Source of the DNA: a bacterium
GTDB taxonomy: Bacteria; Patescibacteriota; Minisyncoccia; Phycocordibacterales; Zambryskibacteraceae
Direction of reading: 5' to 3'
DNA: 35,250 nucleotides
Assembly: GCA_023266935.1 (NCBI GenBank)
Contig: JAHFOF010000005.1
Span: 1-35,250 of the forward strand
Notes under the pieces: generated by a model
The model's database searches: none
Told to the model about the DNA's origin: nothing
Seen by the model: only the letters and a program-made list of their open reading frames with translations
Part shown: positions 3,095-34,152 of the stretch, in pieces
Layout of the letters: each line of letters begins with the position of its first letter
How positions within the stretch are numbered: the stretch's first letter is position 1
Program-made: the position numbers and the translations under genes

Positions 3095-4375
3095 CTAATT
3101 CAAGGGTGGCAAGTAAGCAAGTGGATCAAGATAAGCCTGAAGTGGGGCAGCAACAGTTTTTATTCCTGTACAGTTAGACGAACCAAGAGTCGAAGCATCT
3201 ACAATTCTCACACCCGCCGTCGCATACAATCCAAAGTGTAAATGCGGGCCAGTTGCATAACCAGTGTTACCACTATAGCCAATAATCTGTCCAGTTTGAA
3301 CTGTTTGTCCTGGATTAACTAAAACACTAGAAAAGTGACCATAAATTGTTGAAAGACCGTTATCATGTTTAATCAAAACCCATTTGCCATACTGGCATCC
3401 TTTTTTAGTTTTATAATTTTCTGTATCAGTTACAGTTCCAGCAAGAGCAGCAAATACGGGCGTTCCTATACTAGCTCTAAAATCCATCCCTCCATGTCTG
3501 GCTGTTGTTTTATAGAGTTTGGCTGCTTCGGGGGTATAACCAAAGTATTGGGTGATGGTGATACTAGAAAGTGGCCACACAAGTACTCCCCTTTTTGAAG
3601 ATGGAATGGCTGATGGGTCTAAAGTAACCTTGAGTTGAGATTCATAAAGATATTGTTGTTCTTCAAATTTTTTTTCTAACGCGATGTTGTCGGCCAACAT
3701 TTTCTGATAAATTGTTTCTTGACCCTGAGTTTGAACAAGGAGTTTAGTTTTTTCTGCTTGGGTGGTTTCTACTACGGTTTTTTGTCCTCCGAGCTCTGTT
3801 TTAAGTCCAACTAGTTGTTCTTTTGCCTTTTCTTTTTCTTCTTTTTTCTGTTTCAACATTTCTTGTGCCTGTTGAAGTTTAGATATTTCACTTAGTAGAT
3901 TATTTTGGAGCCCTTCTAATGTATCCCTCTCGGTCCACATTTCACTAATATTTTTATCGTTTAACATATTCATAACGATTGAATCAGAATCATACCCAGC
4001 TAATTGTTTTATGGCTGTAGAAATTGCTTTTTCATGAATACTTACTTGATTTTGTTTGTCGTTTACAGAATTTTGCAATGACTGAATACTTAGGTTGGCC
4101 GTTGTTATTTTAGATTGAGTAATTTTTATATCATTAGTGAGTTTGGTTTTTGTAGTATCCAAAGCTTTTATATTGGTTTGGAGAGTATCCTTGTGTTGAC
4201 CTATGGCTTCTAATTCGGCTTGAAGTTTTTTTTGTTGTTCTAATAAGGCGTCTCGTTGTTTTTGAGTATCAACAATCATTTGTTGAAGGTCATTAGCACT
4301 TTGAGCAAAATTCACTTTTGGTGCAAAAGTAAAGGTTAATAAACATATTAAAAAAAGAACAAAAAACTTTTTCAT
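3095..4375 (-). CDS. Secreted M23 (LytM-type) peptidase with long coiled coil
   Basis: A 426-residue exported protein of the EnvC/LytM layout. Residues 1-24 are a signal peptide ending near FAQS. Residues 27-245 are a long Gln/Lys/Glu-rich coiled coil. Residues 263-390 are the M23 domain, with the zinc ligands HGGMD (H294, D298) and HLH (H378, H380) plus YGHF (H347), all present. Active family members cut peptide crosslinks in peptidoglycan; EnvC-type members with lost ligands only activate amidases, so intact ligands favour an active enzyme. The start ATG directly follows the gltX stop (TAA ATG, no gap). The tail beyond residue 390 carries a Cys pair partner (C327, C402). Confidence 0.92.
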   Translation of the reverse strand: MKKFFVLFLICLLTFTFAPKVNFAQSANDLQQMIVDTQKQRDALLEQQKKLQAELEAIGQHKDTLQTNIKALDTTKTKLTNDIKITQSKITTANLSIQSLQNSVNDKQNQVSIHEKAISTAIKQLAGYDSDSIVMNMLNDKNISEMWTERDTLEGLQNNLLSEISKLQQAQEMLKQKKEEKEKAKEQLVGLKTELGGQKTVVETTQAEKTKLLVQTQGQETIYQKMLADNIALEKKFEEQQYLYESQLKVTLDPSAIPSSKRGVLVWPLSSITITQYFGYTPEAAKLYKTTARHGGMDFRASIGTPVFAALAGTVTDTENYKTKKGCQYGKWVLIKHDNGLSTIYGHFSSVLVNPGQTVQTGQIIGYSGNTGYATGPHLHFGLYATAGVRIVDASTLGSSNCTGIKTVAAPLQAYLDPLAYLPPLN

Positions 4376-5671
4376 TTATTTTAATAGCCCGATGGCCTTG
4401 TTTACTCTTTCAGTAGATTTTTCTTTCCCTAGTATTTCTAAAAGAGTAAACGGATCGGGAGATTTATCTTTACCGGATAGGGCATAGCGCAAGGGCCAAA
4501 GAACGTTACCCTTCCCTACCAGCTCGGCATAACTCATTATAGCTTCATTATCGTCTAAAACATCCAAGATTTTAGTTAAATGTTTTTTGGCTTCAATAGA
4601 ATTTGAATCTTTCCAAGCAATTTTCTCTGAATCAAGTTCCGGTTCATTAAAATAATAGTCTAACTCCCCCACTTCAATAAGTTTATCTACATCCGAATAA
4701 ACCTCGATACGCTCAAATATTAAATTAACTATTTTTGAATTTATATCAGTGTTAGCAAATTTATTTTTTATTCTTTTTTCAATTTCTTTTTTACTATTTT
4801 CTTCATATAGTCTTAGGTGTTCTTTGTTAATCCAGCGAAGTTTTTTTTCATCGAAGATAGCACCACTTTTTTGAACTTTTTCTATATCGAAAGTTTTTTC
4901 TAATTCTACCAAAGAGAATATTTCTTGTTCTGTACCTGGATTCCAACCCAAGAGAGCATAAAAATTGAGTAGTGCTTCTGGTAAATACCCTTGTTTTTTA
5001 TAAAAATCTATCCAAACTGCTTCACCATGATTACGTTTGGAAAGTTTTTTTCTATCATTATCTAAGATAAGGGGAAGGTGGGCATAAATAGGTCTGGTTG
5101 CTCCAATTGCTTCTTGAATCAAAATTTGTCTGGGAGTATTAGAGATATGATCTTCTCCTCGAATAATATGCGTTATCCCCATTTCGAAGTCATCTATTAC
5201 TACGGCGAGATGATAGAGAGGTTCTTCTAAGGATTTAGCTATAACAAAGTCTTTTAATTCTGTTGTATCGAATTCGACTTGACCTCGAATCAAATCATCA
5301 AAAACAATTTTTTTGTTTGGATTTTTAAATCTCACCACTTCGTTTCTTTGTCCTTCTTCGGTAGGTGTTTCTTGCGAAATATAGGCGAAGCCATCGTCTA
5401 TCATTTTTTTTAAATATTTTCTGTATATTTCAGTTCTTTCTGATTGCTTAAAAAACTCATCGTATTTTAAACCAAGCCACTCTAAACCATCTAAAATATT
5501 TTTTTCAAACTCAGCCGTGGAACGTTCTTTGTCGGTGTCTTCAATGCGTAGAATAAATTTTCCTCCATATTTTTTAGCAAAGAGATAGTTAAAAAGCGTC
5601 GTGCGAGCTGTTCCAATATGAAGATTCCCAGTAGGAGAAGGGGCCATCCTGACTATTATTTTTTTATCCAT
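4376..5671 (-). CDS. gltX: Glutamyl-tRNA synthetase
   Basis: A class I synthetase that charges tRNA-Glu. The HIGH-type motif is HIGT (residues 18-21, within PSPTGNLHIGTART) and the KMSKS-type motif is KLSKR (209-213). At 431 residues it is shorter than the usual 460-500, with the shortening in the C-terminal anticodon-binding part. In organisms without GlnRS this enzyme also charges tRNA-Gln for later amidation; whether that holds here cannot be seen. It lies between murG and the M23 gene. Only the 21-base motif at 5675-5695 separates it from the murG stop, and the TATAAA inside that motif sits four bases before the ATG. Confidence 0.96.
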   Translation of the reverse strand: MDKKIIVRMAPSPTGNLHIGTARTTLFNYLFAKKYGGKFILRIEDTDKERSTAEFEKNILDGLEWLGLKYDEFFKQSERTEIYRKYLKKMIDDGFAYISQETPTEEGQRNEVVRFKNPNKKIVFDDLIRGQVEFDTTELKDFVIAKSLEEPLYHLAVVIDDFEMGITHIIRGEDHISNTPRQILIQEAIGATRPIYAHLPLILDNDRKKLSKRNHGEAVWIDFYKKQGYLPEALLNFYALLGWNPGTEQEIFSLVELEKTFDIEKVQKSGAIFDEKKLRWINKEHLRLYEENSKKEIEKRIKNKFANTDINSKIVNLIFERIEVYSDVDKLIEVGELDYYFNEPELDSEKIAWKDSNSIEAKKHLTKILDVLDDNEAIMSYAELVGKGNVLWPLRYALSGKDKSPDPFTLLEILGKEKSTERVNKAIGLLK

Positions 5672-5674
5672 TTT

Positions 5675-5695
5675 ATTTATAGTGAGTTTGTCGAA
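5675..5695 (-). repeat. 21-base start-proximal motif, copy 2 (murG-gltX)
   Basis: In the gene direction it runs TTCGACAAACTCAC then TATAAAT. It begins directly after the murG stop TAA and ends three bases before the gltX ATG, so it makes up nearly the whole gap. Confidence 0.65.
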
Positions 5696-6838
5696 TTATT
5701 TTTCTATTTCGTGACTTAAGGCAATTTTGAGTATTTCTTCAGCCACCAACTTGGCTGCGTCTGGCTTATAAAATTCTCTTGCTGCTTTTTGCATTTTACT
5801 TCGTTCAGGTAAATTATTGATTAATCGATCTATTTCTGCTCCTAAAATATTCGCGGTGAGATTGTCTTGTTCTATTACTTCACATGCCCCAGCACGAGCA
5901 TAGGCAAAGGCATTTGAACGTTGGTCATGACTAACCGGTTCTGGTATAGGAACAATGATAGAAGGCAATCCCCAACTAGCTATTTCAAAGATGGTTGACC
6001 CAGCTCTAGAAACTACAACCGAAGCAACACCGGCGGACATTCTCATGGCTAACGCATTTAAATAATCAAATGGTTTATATCTATCAGCATGTTGAGAACC
6101 ATGGAGAACTGCCTCAGCTGTTTCTTTTACCTCAGCGAATTTTTCTTTGCCGGTTTGATGAATAATGGCATATTTTTCTACAAGCTTAGACAAATCTTCT
6201 ATCAAAATATTATTAATGTGTTCAGAACCGAGAGAACCACCGAGAACAAGAACAATGGGGATATTCTCTTCAATCTTTAAAAATTCTCTTGCACCAATAG
6301 AAATGGGGTCGGCAATATCTTTTCTAACTGGATTGCCTGTGTGAGCCACTCTGTCTTGTCTATCTTTAGGAAAATATTGAGCCGCATCAGCATATGAGAC
6401 TGCAATTTTGTCTGCAAATTTACTGGCCCATAAACTTACTCGTCCAGGTACACTATCTGATTCGTGTATAACTACAGGAATGTGTAAAAGCTTGGCGGCC
6501 AAGAGTGTTGGAAAACTCGCATATCCCCCTTTCCCAAATACTACATCTGGATAAATAGAATAAACTTGATAAATAGACACAAGAACTCCCCAACCAGTTT
6601 TAAACAAGTCAAAAAAATTTAAAATAGAAAAATATCTTCGAATTTTCCCCGCCGTGTTTTTTTTATAGATGACACCGTTTTCAAAAAGTAACCCAGAGTT
6701 ATATGGGTTGGGAGACATATAATACAACTCTGGGGTAAGAAGGTGTTTATCTTTAACTAATTTATTTAGTTCTTCTACAACAGCAATGATGGGATAAAAA
6801 TGACCACCTGTTCCTCCTCCAGTAAAAAGAATTCTCAT
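5696..6838 (-). CDS. murG: UDP-GlcNAc:lipid I N-acetylglucosaminyltransferase MurG
   Basis: This enzyme adds GlcNAc to lipid I to make lipid II, the membrane-bound peptidoglycan building block, on the inner face of the membrane. The N-terminal motif TGGGTGGHFYP (residues 6-16) and the C-terminal UDP-GlcNAc-binding region SRAGSTIFEIASWGLPSI are typical of MurG. At 380 residues it is about the usual size. The start overlaps the ftsW end by four bases (ATGA), and with mraY and ftsW it forms a remnant of the division and cell-wall cluster. The call is firm. Confidence 0.95.
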   Translation of the reverse strand: MRILFTGGGTGGHFYPIIAVVEELNKLVKDKHLLTPELYYMSPNPYNSGLLFENGVIYKKNTAGKIRRYFSILNFFDLFKTGWGVLVSIYQVYSIYPDVVFGKGGYASFPTLLAAKLLHIPVVIHESDSVPGRVSLWASKFADKIAVSYADAAQYFPKDRQDRVAHTGNPVRKDIADPISIGAREFLKIEENIPIVLVLGGSLGSEHINNILIEDLSKLVEKYAIIHQTGKEKFAEVKETAEAVLHGSQHADRYKPFDYLNALAMRMSAGVASVVVSRAGSTIFEIASWGLPSIIVPIPEPVSHDQRSNAFAYARAGACEVIEQDNLTANILGAEIDRLINNLPERSKMQKAAREFYKPDAAKLVAEEILKIALSHEIEK

Positions 6839-7941
6839 CTTGTTTGTTTTTGTGATTTGGAAATTGAAAGGATAATACCTACTTCTAGAAGAGTAATGAA
6901 GAGTGATGTACCTCCGTGGCTAACAAACGGCAAGGTAATACCAGAAAGAGGTAAGACTCCTAACATGGCTCCAATGTTAACGAAAGCTTGGGCTACAATC
7001 ATTATAACAATTCCCACGACTAGTAGTCTACCGAAAGAATCCGGCACTTTCGAAGCAATTTTTAAGCCTCGAATAGCAAAAACCACATATAAAAGAACAA
7101 GTAGACTGGCACCCAGAAAACCAAATTCTTCGGCTTCTACAGCAAAAATAGAATCTCCAATAGGTTCGGGAAGAAAATTAAATTTTTGTACACTTTGTCC
7201 AAATCCCCGACCGAACATACCCCCAGAACCAATAGCTATTAATGATTGTTGAATTTGATAACCAGAACCTTGAGCATTCTGATTTGGATTAAAAAAGGTT
7301 GTAATCCTTTGCATCACGTATGGACGAGAAACGGCCAAACTTCCAACGGCAATTATTGCTGTAGCTAAAACAATAAAAATATATTTCCATCTACCACCTG
7401 CAGATAAAAAAATTGCCATACCAGAACAAACAATCATCATAAAATTATCTGTATCCGGTTGCTTAAGAAGTAAACCACCAAGAATAATAAACAAAATAAC
7501 TAGGGGCAAAAAGCCGTATTTAAAAGTTTTTATCTTTTCTTTTATACCTGAAACAAAAGCTGAAAAATAAACTACAAAAGCTAGTTTTAATATTTCTGCT
7601 GGTTGGATAGATACCCCGCCAAACACAAACCAACGACGAGCTCCACCGTGCTCGAATCCAATATGAGGAATAAGAACAAGAATATTAAGGATAATGGCTA
7701 CAGCCAAAAACCAAAAAGCTGTTTTTTTCCAAATTTTATAGTCTAAATTTGAAGTGATTATTAAGGCGATAGTTCCTAGAAAAAGACCTAGAATGGTTTG
7801 AGAGAAGGTGACAGAAGAATACTGAGAACCGCTTCTGGCCAAAAGCCCGAGCGAAGCCGAGCTAAAAATAAAAAATCCTGCGACCATCAAAGTCACAGTC
7901 CAAAATAAAAACACCTTGTCAATTTTCCACTTAGAAAACAT
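6835..7941 (-). CDS. ftsW: SEDS peptidoglycan polymerase FtsW
   Basis: A multi-pass membrane protein of the SEDS family, the glycan-chain polymerases of the septum (FtsW) or side wall (RodA). About ten membrane segments are visible, with typical motifs such as PAEILKLA, the Lys-Gln-Pro-Asp loop (LLLKQPDTD) and GGTSLF near the end. Its place between mraY and murG favours FtsW over RodA. I take the ATG at 7941 (368 residues) over a TTG two codons upstream because TGTTATAAT, an extended -10 box, ends seven bases before that ATG. It overlaps murG by four bases. Confidence 0.92.
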   Translation of the reverse strand: MFSKWKIDKVFLFWTVTLMVAGFFIFSSASLGLLARSGSQYSSVTFSQTILGLFLGTIALIITSNLDYKIWKKTAFWFLAVAIILNILVLIPHIGFEHGGARRWFVFGGVSIQPAEILKLAFVVYFSAFVSGIKEKIKTFKYGFLPLVILFIILGGLLLKQPDTDNFMMIVCSGMAIFLSAGGRWKYIFIVLATAIIAVGSLAVSRPYVMQRITTFFNPNQNAQGSGYQIQQSLIAIGSGGMFGRGFGQSVQKFNFLPEPIGDSIFAVEAEEFGFLGASLLVLLYVVFAIRGLKIASKVPDSFGRLLVVGIVIMIVAQAFVNIGAMLGVLPLSGITLPFVSHGGTSLFITLLEVGIILSISKSQKQTR

Positions 7942-7948
7942 TAACAAA

Positions 7949-7957
7949 ATTATAACA
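7949..7957 (-). promoter_or_regulatory. Extended -10 box before ftsW
   Basis: TGTTATAAT (gene direction) lies in the mraY-ftsW gap and ends seven bases before the ATG at 7941. An extended -10 (TGnTATAAT) can work without a -35 box. The predicted transcript would be leaderless or nearly so. Confidence 0.5.
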
Positions 7958-7965
7958 TTAAAATC

Positions 7966-9018
7966 CTAACCCAGAAGGGCAATCACTACTCCGATCATAG
8001 CGCACATCATTCCGATAACCCAGTATCGCATTACTACCTTTGTTGCGGGCCAGCCGAGAGCTTGAAAATGGTGATGGATGGGAGCCACTTTGAATATTTT
8101 TTTCCCATTTCTAAATTTTTTGGATAAAAGTTGCAGAGAACTTGAAGCAGAGGAAATAACTAATGGAAAAGCGATGATTGGAAGGAGAATGACTTCTTGA
8201 GTAAGAAAAGCCACTACCGCAAGAGTCAGAGTGAGCGCCATAATTCCCGTTTCAGACATAAAAAATCGTGCAGGTGGAATATTAAACCACAAAAATGCTA
8301 GCAAACTTCCTACTATGACAAAACAAAACGTTGCGAGGTCAATTTGACCATGAAGAAAGGCGATTATCCCATAAGCACTAAAAATAGTAGCGAACACTCC
8401 CCCACTTAATCCATCTAATCCATCTATCACCCCTCCTGAATAAGTACCCAGCATTACCAAGACAAAGAATGGTATAAACAACCAACCGATATTCAAAGAA
8501 CCATAAAATGGAATGAGGATGTTCGTCATTTCAAGTTTGGCATAAAACCACCACGCTCCAATAAATCCAACGATCAGAACGACCAAAAGTCTCTTTTTAA
8601 ATGAAAGTCCACCCGCTTTTTGATCATAGCGTTCTGTCACAGACCAATAATCATCGACCAAACCAATCAAAGCACCAATTATTAAAGTGAAAACCGTTAG
8701 CCAAGTTTGATTTCGACTAAAAAAATTTAATTTATCTAAAGTTTGTCCATCAAAATAACTAGCAAACCAAAAAAAACCGACCGTTAACAAAGTGCTGGCC
8801 CATACTACAATGCCTCCCATCCTCGGTGTCTGCCTAATCTCATCTTTATGTAAAGCTTGAGTAATGGGAGCAGCTCCTCCGTCTGTGGCCACAATAACAC
8901 TTTTCTTTTTCCAAAGTTTGTTTTTATATAAATAATCAGCGACAACCGGTGTAATTATTATCCCAAGAACAAAAGAGACAATAGTGGGAATAAAAATTTT
9001 GATTACATCTAGTGTCAT
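7966..9018 (-). CDS. mraY: Phospho-MurNAc-pentapeptide transferase MraY
   Basis: This integral membrane enzyme moves phospho-MurNAc-pentapeptide from UDP to the undecaprenyl carrier, making lipid I. About ten membrane segments are visible. The key motifs are present: GLVDDYWSV with the paired aspartates (around residue 120), GVIDGLDGLSGG (around residue 197) and the HHHFQALGW motif near the C-terminus. The length of 350 residues is normal. The gene sits directly after the D,D-carboxypeptidase gene, whose stop TAG touches a TATAAT box located six bases before this ATG. Confidence 0.96.
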   Translation of the reverse strand: MTLDVIKIFIPTIVSFVLGIIITPVVADYLYKNKLWKKKSVIVATDGGAAPITQALHKDEIRQTPRMGGIVVWASTLLTVGFFWFASYFDGQTLDKLNFFSRNQTWLTVFTLIIGALIGLVDDYWSVTERYDQKAGGLSFKKRLLVVLIVGFIGAWWFYAKLEMTNILIPFYGSLNIGWLFIPFFVLVMLGTYSGGVIDGLDGLSGGVFATIFSAYGIIAFLHGQIDLATFCFVIVGSLLAFLWFNIPPARFFMSETGIMALTLTLAVVAFLTQEVILLPIIAFPLVISSASSSLQLLSKKFRNGKKIFKVAPIHHHFQALGWPATKVVMRYWVIGMMCAMIGVVIALLG

Positions 9019-9024
9019 ATGAAC

Positions 9025-9030
9025 ATTATA
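9025..9030 (-). promoter_or_regulatory. -10-like box before mraY
   Basis: A perfect TATAAT directly follows the stop codon TAG of the carboxypeptidase gene and lies six bases before the mraY ATG. I see no good -35 box. It belongs to the recurrent TATAAT-N6-ATG pattern. Confidence 0.45.
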
Positions 9031-9951
9031 CTAGTTTATTGAATTTTGAATGTCTACAAGCGTTGCTTCAACAAGTTTCTCTACATCATTGAAGCGTTCT
9101 TTTGCGGTTGATCCAAGGACGGCGATGATAATCGGTCTTCCAATCTCAGGATCAAATGCTATGACCAGGTTGCCCCCGGCCAAATCGGTAAAACCTGTTT
9201 TTGAGCCCTTAATACCAGGAATATTTTCTGCAATTAAATCTGTATTTTTGGCTGTATGAATAATTTTATCTAATGAAGCAATCTTTATTTCTGCTTTAGT
9301 AGTAGCGGGGAGCAAATCTGGATAATTTTTTAATATATAAGCAAATAGAATTCCAACATCTTTAGCTGTACCATATGCTCCTCCAGATTGAGTTGATTCA
9401 TCGATTCCTGTTTCATTAAAATAATATGTATTTTTCATACCCAATTCATCAGCTTTAGAATTCATGAGAGTAACAAATTTTTTTTCTCCACCAAAAGCTA
9501 GCGCAACGGCTGTTGCCCCATCATTTGAAGAAGAGGTCAAAAGAAAATCAATAAGGTTTTTTAAAGTCCATTTTTCTCCCACTCTCAAACCACTGTCTCC
9601 TTCGGCTTTAATAGCCAAGTTTGAAATGACTATAGGTGTTTCTTCGTTTGAAATGCTAATAGCTGTTAATGCTGTCATTAATTTTGTTAGTGAAGCCAAA
9701 GGTAATCTTTCATCCGAATTTTTACTAAATAAAACTTTATTCGTCCTAACATCAAATATATAAACTGATTTGGCTACAAGATTTAATCTTTCGTATGAAG
9801 TAACGAGTACCTTTTTTGTTGAGGAGATATTTTTTTGCTCGATTTTCAGGCCCCAAAATACAGTAGTGATAATCAATCCTATCAAAATCGCTCCGAGTAT
9901 AGAAAAAAATTTGATCTCCGTAGAAGTGGCTAAAAGTTTTTTATTCTCCAT
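9031..9951 (-). CDS. D-alanyl-D-alanine carboxypeptidase (S11, PBP5-like)
   Basis: A penicillin-binding protein that trims the terminal D-Ala from peptidoglycan stem peptides outside the membrane. With the ATG at 9951 it has 306 residues: a short cytoplasmic tail, a membrane anchor (about residues 13-35) and the S11 domain with SLTK (S87-K90), SSN (S141-N143) and KTG (251-253). A longer frame reaches back to 10002, but it would overlap scpB by 62 bases and add a poor leader, so I prefer 9951, which overlaps scpB by 11 bases. The usual C-terminal amphipathic anchor of PBP5 is missing, which fits the N-terminal anchor. Confidence 0.9.
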   Translation of the reverse strand: MENKKLLATSTEIKFFSILGAILIGLIITTVFWGLKIEQKNISSTKKVLVTSYERLNLVAKSVYIFDVRTNKVLFSKNSDERLPLASLTKLMTALTAISISNEETPIVISNLAIKAEGDSGLRVGEKWTLKNLIDFLLTSSSNDGATAVALAFGGEKKFVTLMNSKADELGMKNTYYFNETGIDESTQSGGAYGTAKDVGILFAYILKNYPDLLPATTKAEIKIASLDKIIHTAKNTDLIAENIPGIKGSKTGFTDLAGGNLVIAFDPEIGRPIIIAVLGSTAKERFNDVEKLVEATLVDIQNSIN

Positions 9952-10483
9952 CGACTTGAGGTGAATTTTCAAATTCTTCGATTTTTTGTAAAGCAGTAGC
10001 AAATTCTGGTAAATCTTCTTTTTTGGTGACGCCCAAAAATCTCAATAACTCCATGGTGGCTTTGTAGCTATAACTCCTTTCTCCGACCTCACTTTCACTT
10101 CTTTCTATAAGCCCCCTTATAAGCAGATTTCGTAGAATAAAGCCTGAATTAACCCCTCGGATATAGTCTATCTCCCTACGCGAAATTGGGCCTTTATAGA
10201 GGATTATAGACAGGGTTTCGAGCCCTGCTCGACCCAAATCTTTGCTGTATTCGTCTTTTTGAATCTGTTCTATAAGGGGCGCTGAATCTGGACTCGTACC
10301 GAAACTGATATTTTCTCCATCATTTATAATGACCAATCCCCTATCTCTATAAAAATTTTGTAAATTTTCTGTTGCTATTTTCACCTCTGAGGTTGTCGCA
10401 GATAAAATTTTCCCAAGTTCCTTAAACGAAACCGGTTCATTTTTGAATAACAATATGGCTTCTATTTTGTTTTCTAAATTCAT
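9941..10483 (-). CDS. scpB: Segregation and condensation protein B
   Basis: ScpB is the winged-helix (kite) partner of the SMC-ScpA condensin complex, which folds and segregates the chromosome. The 180 residues show the two winged-helix halves, with typical stretches EAILLFKNEPVSFKELGKIL and the conserved middle LSIILYKGPISRREIDYIRGVNSG, which matches the family signature closely. It lies seven bases after scpA, as in many genomes. Its stop TAA is embedded in the first codons of the carboxypeptidase gene (11-base overlap). Confidence 0.94.
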   Translation of the reverse strand: MNLENKIEAILLFKNEPVSFKELGKILSATTSEVKIATENLQNFYRDRGLVIINDGENISFGTSPDSAPLIEQIQKDEYSKDLGRAGLETLSIILYKGPISRREIDYIRGVNSGFILRNLLIRGLIERSESEVGERSYSYKATMELLRFLGVTKKEDLPEFATALQKIEEFENSPQVDGE

Positions 10484-21384: not shown

Positions 21385-22716
21385 TTAGTTTGTTGAATTT
21401 TCTATTATTTTAATTTTTGTTGAATCAGAAGGGAAAACATTTTTCCAAAACGGCCGTACAACTGCATTCGCTTCGAGTATGCCAGGATAGCTTTTCTTTA
21501 GTATCGTGTCTAGTTCAGTTTTTTGTTTACCCACTAAATCTTTCTTAAGAGCATCCTCATCAGTGAGATATATTGCAGTCGCACTTCCAGCAACTTGGAA
21601 ACTGAGTTGATCGGTTTTTAACAAATCTCTGGCCGATTGACCGATGAAAGTTAGATCTAATTTAGAAAGATCTGGGACATCAACAGGAATTGACTCCGGA
21701 TTCGTGAGTTTCTTCATGGCCAGGAAATTTGCGAGGTCAACCTTCTTGAACATCACCCCATACAAATCAGCGTGAACATTGACTGTCACCCCCTTATCCG
21801 TAGGGTTAGTTTGAGGAAGATTATTATAAGTAATATAAACAAGATTGGGGAAGATAATAAAATCAGGAGGAACTTGTGCTTTGGCCTGACTCATCAATTC
21901 GGTTTTTAGTTGAGTTTGAAGAGTAGTATTCGCTGCCGAAAGGTCTGCATCACTCACTTTTTTTCTCATCCCCACAAATCCTCCAGTCATAGAAGTTTTA
22001 GAACGAGCAAAGATTGTGGTGAATTTTGGATCTCCTTTAAAACCAGGGATGGTAAAGTCTGATAAATCTATATTGTATTCAGCACCTGGTTGATCTGCCC
22101 AAACTATTGTTTCCACAGAACCTGGGATGAGAGAACCGTTGACCATTTTCTGTCCAGGGACAACAATTTCATTTGGAATTCTAAAAACTTTTCCATCTGG
22201 TGTTTGAAAACGAGTATTCTTTATTAATTTTTGTTCGGCTTTGCCTGAATTGTTATAAACTACGATTGAACCGCTGGCCTTTATAGAAACATTCTCTTCG
22301 CCCGAAGCAGGAGTCTTCACTCCCTTATCTTCAGAAAGTTTAACTACGCTAAACAACAAAACTTTATCCCCGCTTTTATAAGCGGTGTAGGTATCTTTTG
22401 TAAACGACAAGGCAGAGGTCTTTGGGGTATAAGTCACCGTTGCCCCAGAAAAAAGAGAAAAGATAGCAAAAGCCAAGATAAGAACCCCAACACTTGCTCC
22501 TATCCACAAAAACTTTTTTGAATATTTAGAACTTCCTCTCCCAAAAGAAGATCTAGGCCTCTGAATCGGTTCTTCATAATCAGAAACTTTGATTTTTGTC
22601 TTAGCTTTGGAATCTTCTTCGATTACATTTAAACGTCTGCGGTTTTCTGGGATAGGAATACTCCGAATTGATTTTCTTCCGTTTGGAGCGATGATGTCGT
22701 CAATGTTCTTCGGCAT
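21385..22716 (-). CDS. Single-pass membrane protein with baseplate-J-like domain
   Basis: A 443-residue protein. Residues 1-68 are a basic, Ser/Arg-rich cytoplasmic tail (including GRKSIRSIPIPENRRR). Residues 69-89 are one membrane helix (FLWIGASVGVLILAFAIFSLF). The rest is an extracytoplasmic, beta-rich part. The stretch NTRFQTPDGKVFRIPNEIVVP followed by VETIVWADQPGAEYNI (split here; residues 168-220) resembles the baseplate J/gp47-type fold, as in similar CPR proteins. A charged Ala/Gln-rich helix follows near 255-290. It directly follows the actin-fold gene, and the pair may form a PilM/PilN-like unit. No secretion or phage genes are nearby. Confidence 0.7.
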   Translation of the reverse strand: MPKNIDDIIAPNGRKSIRSIPIPENRRRLNVIEEDSKAKTKIKVSDYEEPIQRPRSSFGRGSSKYSKKFLWIGASVGVLILAFAIFSLFSGATVTYTPKTSALSFTKDTYTAYKSGDKVLLFSVVKLSEDKGVKTPASGEENVSIKASGSIVVYNNSGKAEQKLIKNTRFQTPDGKVFRIPNEIVVPGQKMVNGSLIPGSVETIVWADQPGAEYNIDLSDFTIPGFKGDPKFTTIFARSKTSMTGGFVGMRKKVSDADLSAANTTLQTQLKTELMSQAKAQVPPDFIIFPNLVYITYNNLPQTNPTDKGVTVNVHADLYGVMFKKVDLANFLAMKKLTNPESIPVDVPDLSKLDLTFIGQSARDLLKTDQLSFQVAGSATAIYLTDEDALKKDLVGKQKTELDTILKKSYPGILEANAVVRPFWKNVFPSDSTKIKIIENSTN

Positions 22717-22736
22717 AATTATAGATTAATTGTATA

Positions 22737-23570
22737 TTAAACTAACAAATTTGAAAATGCCCCGAGGATAGCCAACTTGTGGTTAACCGGTTCGTTTCGA
22801 GGTAACCTTATTAACTCTTTTATAAAATGATTATCAACTCCAAACGCGGTAATGTTTGTATCTGGGAGGATGCTTTCAATTAAAGTTTTGGCTATATTTT
22901 CAAACGGAGTTGGGGAAACTAGATAGACAACATATGGTGAATCAATTTTAAAATGCTCCGTTTTATCCCAAAGATCTTTGAATTCTTTTGTAGAAGATGA
23001 TACAGCTTCATTTATTATTCGAGTTGTCTTTGCATCTAAAGAATCGTTCACAAAAAGAGTGAGGTTTGGACCAGTCATCCTCTTCACATTATTTAATCCA
23101 AAAGGGATATTTAAAGATTGCCCATGTTTACCTAAATGTACGAACTGAAGGTTAGTATTCTCTCCATTCATAGTGATTAATAGAACCGATGGAGTATTTT
23201 GAAAAACTTGTCCGACAATTTTAGATAGAACATCAACAAATTTTAAAGTATGAATTCCTTTCTTTATTCCAAAATATTTGCAAACCTCGTCTTCTATATA
23301 ACGAATAAGGTGGTCGTGCGTAATTTGGTGAGTAATCTCTCCACTATGAGAAATGACTATTTTATCCACAGAAATATTTTTCTTGATTCTGGTTAAACAT
23401 ACCTTAACTTTACCCAACAGAGTCTCTGCCAACTCTGATTCGGTAGGCGTCTCTTCAAAGACAAGAGACATTTGGGCACTAGAGATAATTTCTGGAAGTT
23501 CTGTTTTGGAGTTTTTCACCACAGCCACACCCACAGCACTGGATGACAAATCTATAACCAAAGTGTTCAT
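22737..23570 (-). CDS. Actin-fold (PilM/FtsA-like) protein
   Basis: A 277-residue cytoplasmic protein that appears to belong to the actin/Hsp70 ATPase fold. It begins MNTLVIDLSSSAVGVAVVKN, the phosphate-1 loop pattern (D-x-S/G-S-x-x-x-x-V) of PilM and FtsA. The middle has SVLLITMNGENTNLQFVHLG, an equivalent of phosphate 2, though without the DxG expected of an active ATPase. The C-terminal ITAFGVDNHFIKELIR fits the end of such folds. It lies between alaS and the membrane protein at 21385. PilM binds the cytoplasmic tail of PilN; a like arrangement is inferred here. The family assignment is moderate; the role is unknown. Confidence 0.6.
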   Translation of the reverse strand: MNTLVIDLSSSAVGVAVVKNSKTELPEIISSAQMSLVFEETPTESELAETLLGKVKVCLTRIKKNISVDKIVISHSGEITHQITHDHLIRYIEDEVCKYFGIKKGIHTLKFVDVLSKIVGQVFQNTPSVLLITMNGENTNLQFVHLGKHGQSLNIPFGLNNVKRMTGPNLTLFVNDSLDAKTTRIINEAVSSSTKEFKDLWDKTEHFKIDSPYVVYLVSPTPFENIAKTLIESILPDTNITAFGVDNHFIKELIRLPRNEPVNHKLAILGAFSNLLV

Positions 23571-26310: not shown

Positions 26311-27015
26311 TTATATTTCTTTTATTTTTAAAATTTCCAAAAGTCGTGGACTGTTCTCGATCATATCATGAAGATTCCCTTTTTCTGGATAATTCCATCC
26401 TATCATAATCAGTTTCTGACACTCTCCATAATGAATGGCTGTGCTAGAAAATTTTGTGTTAGTAATGAGCCAACCTTCAGAAAGTTTCCTTTCTCTACCA
26501 CCATAATCAAAGGTGGTTTCTTTTAAATCATCGAATCTCGCTTTCACATACAGAACTACTTTCAAATCAGATTTAATGCCTAATTCATTGTGGAACTTGG
26601 CCTCAGCCATAATTAACTTCTCATCATTCCAAGCGACCACATCTACTTCATGAGGCACACAAGCACCTAAAACAGTCTGATCAGTCAGGGTTTGGAAACC
26701 TTTGTCTTTAAAATATTCTGCGATGAATTGTTCAAACGGAAATCCTGTTGGCCCGAGCTCCATAACCGCCCGTCGGATAGAATAACGCATAGCCACTGGT
26801 TTTTTCCATTTATGGAGTTGATCAAAGGCATGTTTGTAAATATCTGCTGTACTCATTCCCTCATGAAGTTCTGACTTTATATAAGCCAATACATCCTCCG
26901 TCGCCTCATCAGTTGCTCCAGAACGTTTTAAAGACGAACAAAGTTTTTCTTCATTAAAAAGTTCCCGCTGTCCAGTGGACTTTATGATATAAATCTCATT
27001 TTCCATAGAAGACAT
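26311..27015 (-). CDS. ATP-cone / PD-(D/E)XK endonuclease-like fusion
   Basis: A 234-residue two-domain protein. Residues 7-95 match an ATP-cone, the nucleotide-sensing domain of ribonucleotide reductases and NrdR: IIKSTGQRELFNEEKLCSSL opens it, and KPVAMRYSIRRAVMELGPTG closes it. Residues 96-215 look like a Mrr-type restriction endonuclease fold with HEVDVVAW (D125) and AEAK (E138, K140), the D...ExK triad. The frame is open to 27078, but that overlaps mnmA; the ATG at 27015 lies four bases after the mnmA stop, and TATACT is six bases upstream. No methylase is nearby, so it is not an ordinary restriction system. Its role may be repair or nucleotide-dependent DNA cleavage. Confidence 0.8.
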   Translation of the reverse strand: MSSMENEIYIIKSTGQRELFNEEKLCSSLKRSGATDEATEDVLAYIKSELHEGMSTADIYKHAFDQLHKWKKPVAMRYSIRRAVMELGPTGFPFEQFIAEYFKDKGFQTLTDQTVLGACVPHEVDVVAWNDEKLIMAEAKFHNELGIKSDLKVVLYVKARFDDLKETTFDYGGRERKLSEGWLITNTKFSSTAIHYGECQKLIMIGWNYPEKGNLHDMIENSPRLLEILKIKEI

Positions 27016-27019
27016 GGGT

Positions 27020-28051
27020 TTAGTATATCTCATCCACCACCCCTCCACCAAGGCATTCATCATCATTATAAAAAACAATAGATTGTCCTACAGCAAGACC
27101 TCTTTGAGGTCCGTCGAAGGTAACAGTTGATTCATTCAAATCAATAAAAACTTTTTCTCCTCTATATCTAATTCGTGCATGGGTTGGGGCACCTTGTAGA
27201 TTCATATCTCTTAATTTTATTTTTATTGGGGAAAGTTCTTTTATTTCTGTTTCGTCGTCTGAAACAGTAATAGTATTCATTTTCATATCTTTAGACACAA
27301 CATAAAATGCCTTCGAATCAGGAACATTGTGATTCACTTCAAATCCATGTCTTTCTCCAATGGTGTAATAAATTGCACCTCTGTGCTTGCCTATTATTTC
27401 TCCTTTTGTGTTTAAAACATTTCCAGATTGGATTTCAAGAAAGTGAGGAAGAAAGGTTTCCAAATCTACATCCCCGAGGAAACAAATTCCTTGACTATCC
27501 TTTTTAAAAGCCACAGGAATATCATTTTTTTTTGCTAACGAACGAACTTCTTTTTTTTCTAAATCACCCACAGGAAACAAGACATGCTTTAAATCATCCG
27601 GAGTCAAAGTCCAAAGAAAATAACTCTGGTCTTTCTCTTTATCTTGTCCTTCAAAGATTTGATTATTTTTGTTTTGAGCATAATGACCAGTGGCAATAAA
27701 ATCTGCTCCTAACTCTTTTGCTTTTTTCCAAAAGACACCAAACTTTATTTCTCTGTTGCATAAAATATCTGGATTGGGGGTTCGGCCAAGCTCGTATTCG
27801 GTAATCATCTTATCAGCCACAGATTTTTTATATTCTTCTTCAAAATCAAAAAATAAAAATGGGATATCAAGAGTTATAGCTACTCGCATCGCGTCTCTCC
27901 GTTCTTCTCTCCAAGTACAAGGAAGAAAATCTGGGCTCCAAACTTTAATAAAAACGCCAGTAACCTCAAACCCTTGTTGCTTCAAAAGAGCCGCCGAGAC
28001 AGCAGAATCAACCCCTCCTGAGAGTCCTACGAAAACTTTTTTGCCTTTCAT
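27020..28051 (-). CDS. mnmA: tRNA-specific 2-thiouridylase MnmA
   Basis: MnmA puts sulfur on U34 of Lys, Glu and Gln tRNAs, which sharpens decoding. The N-terminal PP-loop is VGLSGGVDSAVSAALL. C102-type and C199-type catalytic cysteines are visible in NPDILCNREIKFG and GICFLGDVD. The 343 residues are slightly short of the usual 360-370, but all three domains are there, ending in the beta-barrel GLAVGQSIVFYNDDECLGGG. The 21-base motif copy 4 fills the gap after mltG. The sulfur-relay partners cannot be seen in this window. Confidence 0.95.
   Translation of the reverse strand: MKGKKVFVGLSGGVDSAVSAALLKQQGFEVTGVFIKVWSPDFLPCTWREERRDAMRVAITLDIPFLFFDFEEEYKKSVADKMITEYELGRTPNPDILCNREIKFGVFWKKAKELGADFIATGHYAQNKNNQIFEGQDKEKDQSYFLWTLTPDDLKHVLFPVGDLEKKEVRSLAKKNDIPVAFKKDSQGICFLGDVDLETFLPHFLEIQSGNVLNTKGEIIGKHRGAIYYTIGERHGFEVNHNVPDSKAFYVVSKDMKMNTITVSDDETEIKELSPIKIKLRDMNLQGAPTHARIRYRGEKVFIDLNESTVTFDGPQRGLAVGQSIVFYNDDECLGGGVVDEIY
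27022..27027 (-). promoter_or_regulatory. -10-like box before the ATP-cone/endonuclease gene
   Basis: TATACT, which overlaps the first base of the mnmA stop codon (27020-27022), ends six bases before the ATG at 27015. One mismatch to TATAAT. The spacing supports the choice of this ATG over one three codons further on. Confidence 0.35.
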
Positions 28052-28968: not shown

Positions 28969-30204
28969 TTAAATCGGGAGATTAGAAGGAGCTTCTGCTT
29001 TCTTTGAAGGAATACGAGTGAGCGTAGGAGTGGCTGCAACAATCGAACTTGGGAAGTGAAAGAGTGTGGCTAACTCTTCGGTCGTAAGAATAAATGGCTT
29101 GCCATGGAAATGTTTAAAGGGAACATTAAAAAATGATCGACGTTTATAAGCTTCGAGGAGCTTGGTTTCATTTTGAGCTTTTTTCTTGCCTTTAAAATCT
29201 TGCCATGGATAATCATATCCAGCATTAAAATCTGGTTTGAAACCGTTCAAAGAAGATGAACTAAATTGAGCAAAACTTCCTATAAGACCGCCTATATTTG
29301 TAGCGTTAAAGGAATCTTTTTCTGCAAAGTAAGTGGCACGAATCATAGTATCAAAAGCCGGTTTAGCAGAAGCTCTTTCTATAGCAGCTATGACATCTTG
29401 TTGACCCTTGGAAGGCTGGGGAGAAGCTTTTTTGTCTTCAGTTTTGGGTGTTGCTTTTGTTAAAATTTCTTTTATTTCTTTCTCTATTCCCACTTTCCAA
29501 TCAGGTTTAATAAATACTCGACCATATTTTAATCCTTCTTTAGTATGACCTTGAATCAATATTTGAAACCAAGCATTTTCACCTTTCTTAAGAGAACCCA
29601 AAAATTCTAACATCGGCACTATAGGGTCATTTTTATATTCTTCTTTTTCAGTTTTATCTAATCCATAATCAATATAAGTTTTAATCGGATAAGCATCCGC
29701 TTTGGTTAAGGCATATTGACCAATCCAACCTATAGAAATTTTTTCTGGATCTCGATGAATACCAAGAGTATAATCTGAAACTTCGTGAACTTCTGCATTG
29801 GGAAACTGTGCATAAAGTTGGGATTCCACACGACCCTTAGATGCTTTCAAGCACCAAATATAAAAATGGACTTCACCTCCTTTAGATACCAGCTCAAGAG
29901 AAAACCATGTGCGAACTCGACCTTTGAGATAAACATCCAAAAGAGTGCCAACTCCAGTGTTATGAAGAGTGTTTAAGAAAATCTCCATAGCCAGTGGAGA
30001 TTTCACCATTTCTCGAGGAATTTTTATTTCCAACAAAACTGAACCTTGAGAAGCAATCCATTCGCGTCTTTTATAATTAAGCCAAAGGATAAACCAATAT
30101 CTAATCAATATTAAAGAGATCCAAACTGGAGAAGTTCTCCAAATCACATTCCAAACTTGTTGAACTATTGGATTTTGTACTAGAGATAAAATCTGTTCTA
30201 TCAT
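28969..30204 (-). CDS. Membrane-anchored protein resembling the N-terminal part of conjugation ATPases
   Basis: A 411-residue protein of uncertain role. A membrane segment lies near residues 23-45 (TSPVWISLILIRYWFILWLN). A mixed alpha/beta part follows, with VLLEIKIPREMVKSPLAME and GGEVHFYIWC. A charged Lys/Pro linker lies near 255-275. The C-terminal stretch FILTTEELATLFHFPSS, then TPTLTRIPSKKAEAPSNLP, resembles the segment that precedes the ATPase domain in HerA/VirB4/TraD-like transfer proteins. No Walker A motif is present and no ATPase gene follows. I recall such proteins as common in CPR genomes (DUF8128-like); the name is from memory and unchecked. The ATG at 30204 is preferred over a GTG just before it. 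Confidence 0.65.
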   Translation of the reverse strand: MIEQILSLVQNPIVQQVWNVIWRTSPVWISLILIRYWFILWLNYKRREWIASQGSVLLEIKIPREMVKSPLAMEIFLNTLHNTGVGTLLDVYLKGRVRTWFSLELVSKGGEVHFYIWCLKASKGRVESQLYAQFPNAEVHEVSDYTLGIHRDPEKISIGWIGQYALTKADAYPIKTYIDYGLDKTEKEEYKNDPIVPMLEFLGSLKKGENAWFQILIQGHTKEGLKYGRVFIKPDWKVGIEKEIKEILTKATPKTEDKKASPQPSKGQQDVIAAIERASAKPAFDTMIRATYFAEKDSFNATNIGGLIGSFAQFSSSSLNGFKPDFNAGYDYPWQDFKGKKKAQNETKLLEAYKRRSFFNVPFKHFHGKPFILTTEELATLFHFPSSIVAATPTLTRIPSKKAEAPSNLPI

Positions 30205-30210
30205 CACTAC

Positions 30211-31323: not shown

Positions 31324-34152
31324 CTATACCACGATGTTGACAATTTTGCCAAGAACCACAATTACTTTCTTTGGAGTTTGTCCTTCGAGCCATTTTGCAA
31401 GTTCAGGGAGGGCCAAGGCCTTCAGTCTAGTCTCTTCTTCTCCACTATTCGAATCGAGCACAAGCGTGGCTCGGAGCTTGCCATTTATTTGCACTCCTAT
31501 AGTCACTTCGTTGTCTTCAAGTTTGTTTTCATCAAAGTCTGGCCATGATTCAAAACCGAGTAAAGTCACATGCCCAAGCTCGTGCCAAATTTCTTCGGTT
31601 ATATGCGGAGCGAATGGGTTCAAGAGTTTGAGTAATGCTTCATACTCATCTTGGAAAACTTTTTCTTGTTTTTCTAAAGCATTCACAAAAATCATCATAT
31701 TTGAAATCGCTGTATTAAAATTCATTAACTCAATGTCATTTGTCACCTTCTTTATTGTTTTGTGAAGATTTGGAGAGCCAAAAAATTCTTCTTTAGAATC
31801 AATAACTTTTTCCTTTAATTTCCAAACCTTTTCTATAAATCTTCTTGGCCCAACCAGAGAATCTTCGCTCCAGGCTATCGCCTGTTCGAACGGACCCATA
31901 AACATTTCATAAACACGTAGGGTGTCAGCACCAAATCTTTCAATAATATTATCTGGATTAACTACATTGCCCTTGGATTTGCTCATCTTCTCTCCACCTT
32001 CTGCCAAAATCAATCCATGTGATGTTCGCTTTTTATATGGTTCGCTTGTAGGAACTAAACCGATATCAAATAAAAATTTATTCCAAAAACGAGAATAAAG
32101 AAGGTGAAGAGTGGTGTGCTCCATGCCTCCGTTATACCAATCAACAGGCATCCAATCGTCAAGACTTTTCTTTGAAGCGAATTTATTGTCATTGAATGGG
32201 TCTGTGTAGCGGAGGAAATACCAACTGGATCCGGCCCAATTCGGCATAGTATCTGTCTCTCGCCTTGCTTCTCCACCACACTTTGGGCATTTAACATTTA
32301 CCCAATCACTGATAGTAGCTAGTGGGGATTCGCCATTGTCAGTTGGCTGATAATTTTTTACCTCCGGAAGCATCACTGGTAGATCCTTCTCTGGTACTGG
32401 CACTATTCCGCATTTCTCACAATGAATCACTGGTATGGGTTCTCCCCAATATCTTTGTCTGCTAAATACCCAGTCACGGAGTTTGAATCTGGTAACCATC
32501 TTACCTCCTACAAATTCTGAGATTTCTTTTTGAGCAAATCCTGAATCCATATCGTTGAATTTACCTGAATTGATCAAAATTCCTGAGCCTGGAATCGAAC
32601 TGCCTCCTGACATTTCAAAATTAAAAATGAAAAGATGGTTTTGAAGAGTAATGGTTTCTCTCATTTCTTCTTTAGTAAGCCAACTCAAATGATGAAGATC
32701 CATTTCTTCTTGAGATATTTCCCTTTTTTCTCCATCAGCTAATTGTATAAAAACATTTTTTTGAGTAACTATTCTGTTCACGCCCTTATGTGGTGCGTGA
32801 AATTTATCCACATGTTCTAATGGTATGTACCTAGCCTCCTTTATGTTTTGATATCCAGTTTCTTCTTGTATTTCTCTGACTGCTGATTCTAATGGGTTCT
32901 CGCCTTCCTCTATGCCGCCAGTAAATAGACACTTCCAGTTAAATTTTGGGGAATAATTTAAAAGATATTTTTCTTCAGACCAGTGTTTTACAAGAACAAT
33001 TACACCATTTCGTTCTGTGTTTTCTGCCCCCTCTATAGTTGGATTCACTTTGTCTACAAATATTGGAGCTATAACTTGTTTTATTAGTAAATTGTATTTC
33101 TGAGCAAATTCAAAATCTCTTTGGTCATGAGCCGGTACAGCCATAATGGCGCCGGTCCCATAATGAGGTAAAACATAGTCCGCAATCCAAACTGGGATCT
33201 CTTCTTTGGTAGCAGGATTAATCGCCTTGATTCCCACGAGTTCAACACCTGTTTTTTCTTTATCGCCTGTCCTATCTATCTCTGTTTTGCTTTTTGCTTT
33301 CTTAATATATTCACCAACCTCATCCCAATTTGAGATTTGAGATTTGAGTTTTTGAATCAAATCATGCTCTGGAGCTAAAACCATATAAGTCGCACCAAAA
33401 ATCGTGTCTGGACGAGTGGTGAAAACTTTTATTTTCTCTTTAGTAGTAGTTTCAAAATCAATTTCAGCTCCTTCTGACCTTCCTATCCAATTTCTTTGCT
33501 GTGTCTTCACTCGTTCAGGAAAATCCACCGTGTCTAAATCTTTGTCCAATCTATCTGCGTATTTGGTGATGGCGAGCATCCACTGCTCCTTCTCCCTCTT
33601 CTCCACTGGTGTACCACAACGTTCACAACAACCATTCACCACTTCTTCATTGGCTAAACCAATTTTATCTTTTGGGCACCAATTAATTGCTATCTTCGCC
33701 TTGTAAGCCAAATCATGTTCAAGGAATTTCAGAAATAACCATTGGGTCCATTTATAATATTTTGGGTCAGTAGTATTTATTTCTCGCGACCAATCAAACG
33801 ATATGCCGAGTGATTTTATTTGTTTTCTAAAGGTATCTGTATTTTCTATTGTTATTTCTCTCGGAGCTCGACCAGTCTTGATGGCATAGTTTTCTGTGGG
33901 CAGACCGAATGCGTCCCAACCTATCGGATAAAGCACATCAAACCCCTCCATTCGCCTCTTGCGGGCTATAACATCCATACCTATATACGGCCTAGGATGC
34001 CCAACATGAAGTCCGTCTCCAGATGGATAAGGAAATTCAATCAGTGCATAATATTTTGGTTTAGTAGATTCAGTTTCAGCGTTGTATAAATCTTTCTCCC
34101 AAACCTTCTGCCACTTTGATTCAATTTGTTTTGGATCGTATTCGCTAGACAT
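31324..34152 (-). CDS. leuS: Leucyl-tRNA synthetase with inserted Nudix domain
   Basis: A class I synthetase that charges tRNA-Leu, 942 residues against about 860 usual. HIGH-type HVGH is at 49-52 and KMSKS at 722-726. The CP1 editing domain (about 225-360) keeps the Thr-rich TTRPDTIFGATY and GTGAIMAVPAHDQRD with the tRNA-editing Asp (D345). Directly after the editing core, where other LeuRS have a loop of about 15 residues, about 145 residues of a Nudix domain are inserted (370-515). The LeuRS sequence then resumes at GSGILINSGKFNDMDS. Zinc modules (CEKCG, CPKCGG) and the C-terminal anticodon domains are present. The start overlaps the preceding gene by eight bases. Confidence 0.96.
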   Translation of the reverse strand: MSSEYDPKQIESKWQKVWEKDLYNAETESTKPKYYALIEFPYPSGDGLHVGHPRPYIGMDVIARKRRMEGFDVLYPIGWDAFGLPTENYAIKTGRAPREITIENTDTFRKQIKSLGISFDWSREINTTDPKYYKWTQWLFLKFLEHDLAYKAKIAINWCPKDKIGLANEEVVNGCCERCGTPVEKREKEQWMLAITKYADRLDKDLDTVDFPERVKTQQRNWIGRSEGAEIDFETTTKEKIKVFTTRPDTIFGATYMVLAPEHDLIQKLKSQISNWDEVGEYIKKAKSKTEIDRTGDKEKTGVELVGIKAINPATKEEIPVWIADYVLPHYGTGAIMAVPAHDQRDFEFAQKYNLLIKQVIAPIFVDKVNPTIEGAENTERNGVIVLVKHWSEEKYLLNYSPKFNWKCLFTGGIEEGENPLESAVREIQEETGYQNIKEARYIPLEHVDKFHAPHKGVNRIVTQKNVFIQLADGEKREISQEEMDLHHLSWLTKEEMRETITLQNHLFIFNFEMSGGSSIPGSGILINSGKFNDMDSGFAQKEISEFVGGKMVTRFKLRDWVFSRQRYWGEPIPVIHCEKCGIVPVPEKDLPVMLPEVKNYQPTDNGESPLATISDWVNVKCPKCGGEARRETDTMPNWAGSSWYFLRYTDPFNDNKFASKKSLDDWMPVDWYNGGMEHTTLHLLYSRFWNKFLFDIGLVPTSEPYKKRTSHGLILAEGGEKMSKSKGNVVNPDNIIERFGADTLRVYEMFMGPFEQAIAWSEDSLVGPRRFIEKVWKLKEKVIDSKEEFFGSPNLHKTIKKVTNDIELMNFNTAISNMMIFVNALEKQEKVFQDEYEALLKLLNPFAPHITEEIWHELGHVTLLGFESWPDFDENKLEDNEVTIGVQINGKLRATLVLDSNSGEEETRLKALALPELAKWLEGQTPKKVIVVLGKIVNIVV
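32608..33045 (-). other. Nudix hydrolase domain inserted in LeuRS
   Basis: Residues 370-515 of LeuRS form a complete Nudix-type domain. The Nudix box (412-434) starts GGIEEGENPLESAVREIQ and ends EETGY, matching G-x5-E-x7-R-E-U-x-E-E-x-G-U at every fixed position, so it should bind metal. Beta strands (GVIVLVKHW before the box, KNVFIQL after it) and HLSWLTKEEM are typical of MutT-like proteins. The reading frame is continuous on both sides. Confidence 0.9.

Follow-up and report, generated by a model that had tools for sequence, protein, structure and literature searches.

An actin-like protein and its single-pass J-barrel partner as a candidate envelope module of Patescibacteria, present in reduced form in a Zambryskibacteraceae genome

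The window analysed here is a whole stretch of 35,250 nucleotides, contig 3 of a CPR-type genome assembled into 12 contigs (543,574 bases, 94% complete). It carries, on the minus strand, the gene order alaS, ACT, BPJ, infA, rpsM, rpsK, rpsD and rpoA, in which ACT denotes an actin-like protein and BPJ the single-pass membrane protein encoded directly downstream of it. Both open reading frames lie exactly at the coordinates given below and are separated by 20 bp. The features of the two genes are as follows.

22737..23570, minus strand: ACT, actin-like protein of 277 aa, FtsA/PilM superfamily, shortened form (open reading frame, AlphaFold, Foldseek, tree).
23520..23561, minus strand: phosphate-1-like loop of ACT (LVIDLSSSAVGVAV), DIGT/DIGS in distant members and decayed here (alignment).
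23322..23348, minus strand: site of the missing 1C (SHS2-like) subdomain of ACT, with 9 residues left (alignment).
23151..23189, minus strand: phosphate-2-like segment of ACT (SVLLITMNGENTN), which reads DIGGGTTD in distant members and has lost the catalytic Asp in this copy (alignment).
21385..22716, minus strand: BPJ, single-pass membrane protein of 443 aa, outer part with a J barrel (open reading frame, alignments).
22510..22716, minus strand: basic cytoplasmic tail of BPJ, residues 1-69, standing in place of the ~85-aa N-domain and linker of distant members.
22633..22674, minus strand: conserved tail motif of BPJ, KSIRSIPIPENRRR, family form [RKT][ST]I[RK][DNS][IV][PS][ILV]P.
22447..22509, minus strand: transmembrane helix of BPJ (hydropathy peak at residue 70).
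22030..22284, minus strand: baseplate-J/GlxA-like beta barrel of BPJ, residues ~145-229 (sequence and fold of a relative).
21388..22029, minus strand: rest of the outer alpha/beta part of BPJ, with no family match (alignment; model L100 of the homologous region).

The window also encodes MurG, FtsW/RodA, MraY-like, S11, M23 and MltG. Several further observations were made along the same contig. A wall and division cluster at 3095-10002 (minus strand) comprises an M23 peptidase, MurG-type, FtsW/RodA, MraY-like and D-Ala-D-Ala carboxypeptidase-type genes, and a glutamyl-type tRNA synthetase sits inside it. At 26311-27078 (minus strand), an ATP-cone domain is fused to a Mrr-type nuclease domain, beside mnmA and udg across the family. 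The 412-aa open reading frame with a GTG start at 28969-30207 (minus strand) adjoins mltG and matched no Pfam family at the thresholds used. In addition, the 942-aa leucyl-tRNA synthetase at 31324-34152 (minus strand) has an internal NUDIX match (residues 382-500, 3.9e-12) that falls between the editing and C-terminal parts. In two genomes of the window's genus, a protein of ~160 aa, SET-domain methyltransferase-like by eye, lies between alaS and ACT (L061:4041-4532 and L067:6142-6624).

The first-pass annotation, made from the sequence alone, had assigned a PilM/FtsA-like actin fold to the 277-aa protein and named structure prediction as its check. The AlphaFold model bears this out (pLDDT 90.2, pTM 0.89): its best Foldseek matches include PilM, FtsA, ParM and Ppx (E about 1e-10, probability 1.0), and it shows an actin fold of two alpha/beta domains with the core intact. 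Taken alone, the window ACT matched no Pfam family. Most of its relatives within the genus measure 371-390 aa, the profile of these genus relatives touches FtsA and PilM, and a profile of the 42-sequence ACT family searched against the PDB matched PilM best (4.5e-24) and FtsA at 8e-23. Distant ACT proteins keep the motifs DIGT, DIGGGTTD and GGGS intact in the alignment, together with a 1C region of ~95 residues. The distant examples tested exceed the Pfam cut-off for FtsA (PF14450), and they reach about 59-114 bits against the FtsA family model TIGR01174, below its cut-off of 176 bits. True FtsA scored above that cut-off in 20 of 20 genomes checked, each time alongside an ACT below it. Furthermore, in a 66-sequence tree ACT, FtsA, PilM and MreB form separate groups; ACT does not group with PilM, and the ACT proteins of the window's order lie on a long branch (1.29).

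The window's genome (G000) encodes its own FtsA-FtsZ pair on contig 9, separate from ACT, and two MreB-like genes elsewhere. The absence of pilus and phage-tail genes nearby, as annotated at first, holds for the window. The suggested search for co-occurring type IV pilus genes gave a divided answer: there are none in the window, and a full operon lies on another contig (PilM, PilO, PilB, PilT, PilC, pilin and prepilin peptidase), where the gene at the PilN position matched no Pfam family. The separate paralogs and the tree rule out that ACT is the pilus PilM or FtsA itself. ACT is a third actin-like lineage of the FtsA/PilM type, encoded directly upstream of a single-pass J-barrel protein. As a separate observation, the true FtsA of G000 (contig 9:12838-13608) and of its order relatives scores 177-242 bits for the best piece, against 331-400 in other CPR, and in several genomes of the order FtsA is matched in two pieces.

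BPJ begins with a basic tail of 69 residues, close to the 68 or so first estimated, followed by one hydrophobic helix. The baseplate-J-like stretch proposed for its outer part is weak by sequence, with Baseplate_J at 1.5e-4 at best and in 6 of 20 relatives, and the GlxA barrel in 13 of 20. It is clear by fold in a full-length relative, L100, whose model (pLDDT 84) mostly exceeds 79 in the region homologous to the remaining outer part of BPJ; the fold evidence for the barrel in the window thus comes from the model of this relative, to which the outer part of BPJ is homologous. Foldseek matched about 110 residues of the L100 model to GlxA (1.5e-8) and to phage Mu gp47 and other J wedge proteins (1e-6 to 1e-5), and the J-like barrel measures ~85-110 residues. 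No PilN-type outer domain appeared for BPJ in the Pfam or Foldseek lists. A short BPJ paralog of ~380 aa, with its helix near residue 20 and neither N-domain nor ACT, was also seen (L234, L235 and L237; L239, L241 and L242); judged by eye, the adjoining gene resembles a pilB-type ATPase in part of the families, and in other families the genes beside it resemble dnaE or thrS.

Conservation of the pair was examined in 287 sampled genomes of the phylum, of which 202 were matched by the BPJ profile and 255 by the ACT profile, whose matches include paralogs. Among the matches listed, ACT lies directly upstream of BPJ on the same strand in 86 of the 91 genomes with both, and the five exceptions have the two matches on different contigs. 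The majority of distant BPJ proteins, which have about 530-700 aa, start with a conserved domain of ~85 residues, followed by a linker and the membrane helix. This N-domain (pattern xYLExDEEITSxxxKLxxxxxxxIxLVVPKxAxLLQSxVNLKLL...), for which no relatives were found in Pfam or the PDB, is matched in 177 of 287 genomes, once per genome among the matches listed, and adjoins ACT in 110 of 115 genomes, again among the matches listed. It was found in 0 of 12 sampled genomes of the window's order. Presumably, Chloroflexota proteins of the 'baseplate J/gp47 family' have a similar N-domain. A common distant setting is alaS-ACT-BPJ-ruvX-mltG; one distant genome has MurJ and the sugar-metabolism genes enolase and PfkB as neighbours instead. 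In one family (f37), BPJ has diverged so far that the first profile misses it, yet it is in place. A sequence scan with five distant BPJ proteins returned 14 loci, and all those with informative titles are from CPR; named genomes searched with the window ACT as query gave no match. In most of the phylum, ACT keeps its ATP motifs and 1C, and BPJ has a cytoplasmic domain of ~85 residues.

The two conserved elements also tend to occur together. Of the 67 BPJ loci compared, 28 had both the N-domain and an intact ATP motif and 34 had neither; the N-domain occurred alone in five, where ACT is decayed or missing, and the motif never occurred alone. This co-distribution fits an ACT that would act on the BPJ N-domain; since it rests on about 3 parsimony changes (2-3 independent pairs), it is suggestive only, and the five genomes that retain the N-domain beside a decayed or missing ACT count against it. 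No published description of the pair was found in the literature searched, which covered few subscription papers; the pair is old and apparently undescribed there.

The form found in the window is heavily reduced. Its 1C region comprises 9 residues, against 75-96 in nearly all relatives and 41 in G008, which also has an in-frame shortened 1C on another branch of the tree. In the alignment, the window ACT lacks the phosphate-2 aspartate and its ATP motifs have decayed; the adenosine (GG) motif is gone from all ACT proteins of the order that were looked at. Across the order, the ATP motifs and 1C decay stepwise, and 1C is still present in most members. Within the family, BPJ was found in 29 of 31 genomes, just before infA wherever that end is visible. 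The ACT gene is absent from 17 of these 29, namely the large sister genus g6 and G007, while eight of the nine genomes in the window's genus, the window counted, keep it. For instance, in G015 (genus g6, two contigs) the remaining actin-type matches are of the FtsA, MreB and PilM types, which were assigned by size, score and position. ACT is also missing between alaS and BPJ in several families of the class, and a degenerate ACT of 303 aa occurs in one; mapped on the BPJ tree, ACT presence needs seven changes. The expectation that the two genes stay together in relatives therefore stands across the phylum (86/91 and 110/115 among the matches listed) and fails within the family, where ACT is lost from 17/29 genomes. 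ACT has also diverged faster than the genes around it: relatives in the genus share 25-30% identity with the window's ACT, compared with 44-54% in BPJ and about 50% in alaS. The ACT frame is nevertheless open over 277 codons, and an AAGG resembling a ribosome site directly precedes the ATG. A pseudogene or an assembly artefact is ruled out by the intact frame, the confident fold and the in-frame 1C shortening seen also in G008. With this open frame and confidently predicted fold, the window ACT may retain a function.

PilM grips PilN through a peptide groove of which 1C forms one wall, and the binding motif of PilN is basic, short and near the N-terminus. A similar clamp was proposed by the first-pass annotation, with the window ACT gripping the tail motif IRSIPIPENRRR and acting as a switch. 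Several similarities speak for it: PilM is the best PDB match of the ACT family profile (4.5e-24), the gene order is that of pilM-pilN, the PilM:PilN1-12 complex 5eou is among the Foldseek matches of the window ACT, and the tail motif is PilN-like in being basic, short and near the N-terminus. However, 1C is deleted and the ATP motifs are decayed in the window ACT, and a real PilM occurs with PilO and other pilus genes elsewhere in the genome. Furthermore, a tail gripped by ACT should decay where ACT is lost, whereas all 17 family members that lack ACT retain the motif ([RK]SIR[DNS]IPIP-type), as do all 12 that have ACT (29/29 in total). With no 1C and a tail motif kept without ACT, a PilM-PilN-style clamp is unlikely in this organism, and the tail grip first put forward is not supported for the window copy. 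The same conservation would suit a tail that binds the cell's own FtsA, with BPJ as an FtsN-like adaptor, a divisome-linked wall protein, and FtsA replacing ACT in the order. FtsA is encoded in every family genome and paired with FtsZ in the window's own, wall and division genes lie nearby in the window, and FtsA recruits FtsN through its 1C domain (PMC8998562). The low FtsA score in the order (177-242 bits for the best piece, 331-400 elsewhere) implies that FtsA has changed there too, although this divergence has other possible causes; BPJ, moreover, carries neither SPOR nor any other domain known from division. We regard this reading as unlikely, if worth keeping in view.

ACT could also be a neutral remnant on its way out, with no role in this organism. 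The 1C deletion, the lost motifs, the branch of 1.29, the low identity within the genus and the losses in the sister genus and in G007 all point that way, but the 277-codon frame is intact behind its AAGG stretch, the model reaches pLDDT 90 with the core preserved, and the gene is kept in 8/9 genomes of the genus (window counted), so we hold this account to be improbable rather than far-fetched. Nearly refuted is descent from a phage or injection device, in which BPJ would be a domesticated baseplate wedge protein. Foldseek does match the L100 model to J/gp47 wedge proteins; only ~110 residues match, however, and secreted GlxA has the same barrel with a better score. The presence of this barrel in a secreted enzyme means that it is not a mark of phage. 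In addition, tblastn against 50,697 phage records gave no match, and the gene is kept beside housekeeping genes over the phylum with no tail genes nearby. A prophage or plasmid origin of the pair was likewise rejected, as searches of phage and plasmid records returned no match.

We tentatively prefer, at a probability of roughly 0.45, to read ACT and BPJ as a conserved, uncharacterised envelope module of CPR/Patescibacteria, consisting of a switch and an anchor, which is reduced here and, in this lineage, in the course of losing its switch. The envelope role is a putative one, read from topology and neighbouring genes, and in one genome those neighbours are sugar-metabolism genes and MurJ. A part in cell contact, as raised by the first-pass annotation, would be speculative. 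In the full form, ATP-bound ACT would bind the cytoplasmic N-domain of BPJ and set the position or assembly of its outer part, perhaps built as a ring or collar in the wall, by a logic like that of PilM-PilN or FtsA-FtsN. Members of the window's order have lost the N-domain, and their ATP binding has decayed; in the window's genome 1C is deleted as well. BPJ would then be the part retained, held by its membrane helix and the short conserved basic tail. This tail would have to bind a partner other than ACT, for which the cell's own FtsA or PilM are candidates, and the window ACT is probably a nucleotide-free remnant with a scaffold role at most.

Compared with known systems, the pair resembles PilM-PilN in that an actin-fold protein of the same superfamily is encoded ahead of a single-pass protein whose cytoplasmic part is short, and BPJ shares with PilN a single pass and a short basic N-terminus. 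It differs in that the ACT clade is separate from the genome's PilM and has no PilO, PilB or PilC neighbours, its partner is of the J-barrel type and not PilN, the window ACT lacks 1C and ATP motifs, and the widespread form of BPJ has a cytoplasmic domain of ~85 aa instead of a peptide. The likeness to FtsA lies in the best domain match of distant ACT (PF14450, above cut-off) and a 1C-type insert, and that to FtsA/FtsN in the link from the cytoplasm to a wall-side single-pass protein; unlike FtsA, however, ACT is not next to ftsZ and scores below the FtsA family cut-off. With baseplate J/gp47 and GlxA, BPJ has in common one beta barrel of ~85-110 residues in its outer part, whereas it is membrane-anchored and cellular, lies outside any phage or contractile tail cluster, and has no match for the rest of its outer part.

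Apart from type IV pili, few surface machines are known from the host-dependent Patescibacteria, whose genomes are tiny. Because most of the phylum retains this two-gene module beside wall or housekeeping genes, it is a strong candidate for a core component of the envelope or division apparatus, and the series from an intact to a lost motor is a natural experiment on which half matters. The window copy is unsuitable as a model form; the module would be testable in culturable Saccharibacteria, if they carry the pair. Altogether, it is conceivable, though we would not yet call it probable, that CPR share a phylum-wide actin-powered envelope machine, in which a third ATPase of the FtsA/PilM type would act on a J-barrel surface protein by way of a novel cytoplasmic domain, and that one class may have given up the motor several times, so that its surface protein would function by itself.
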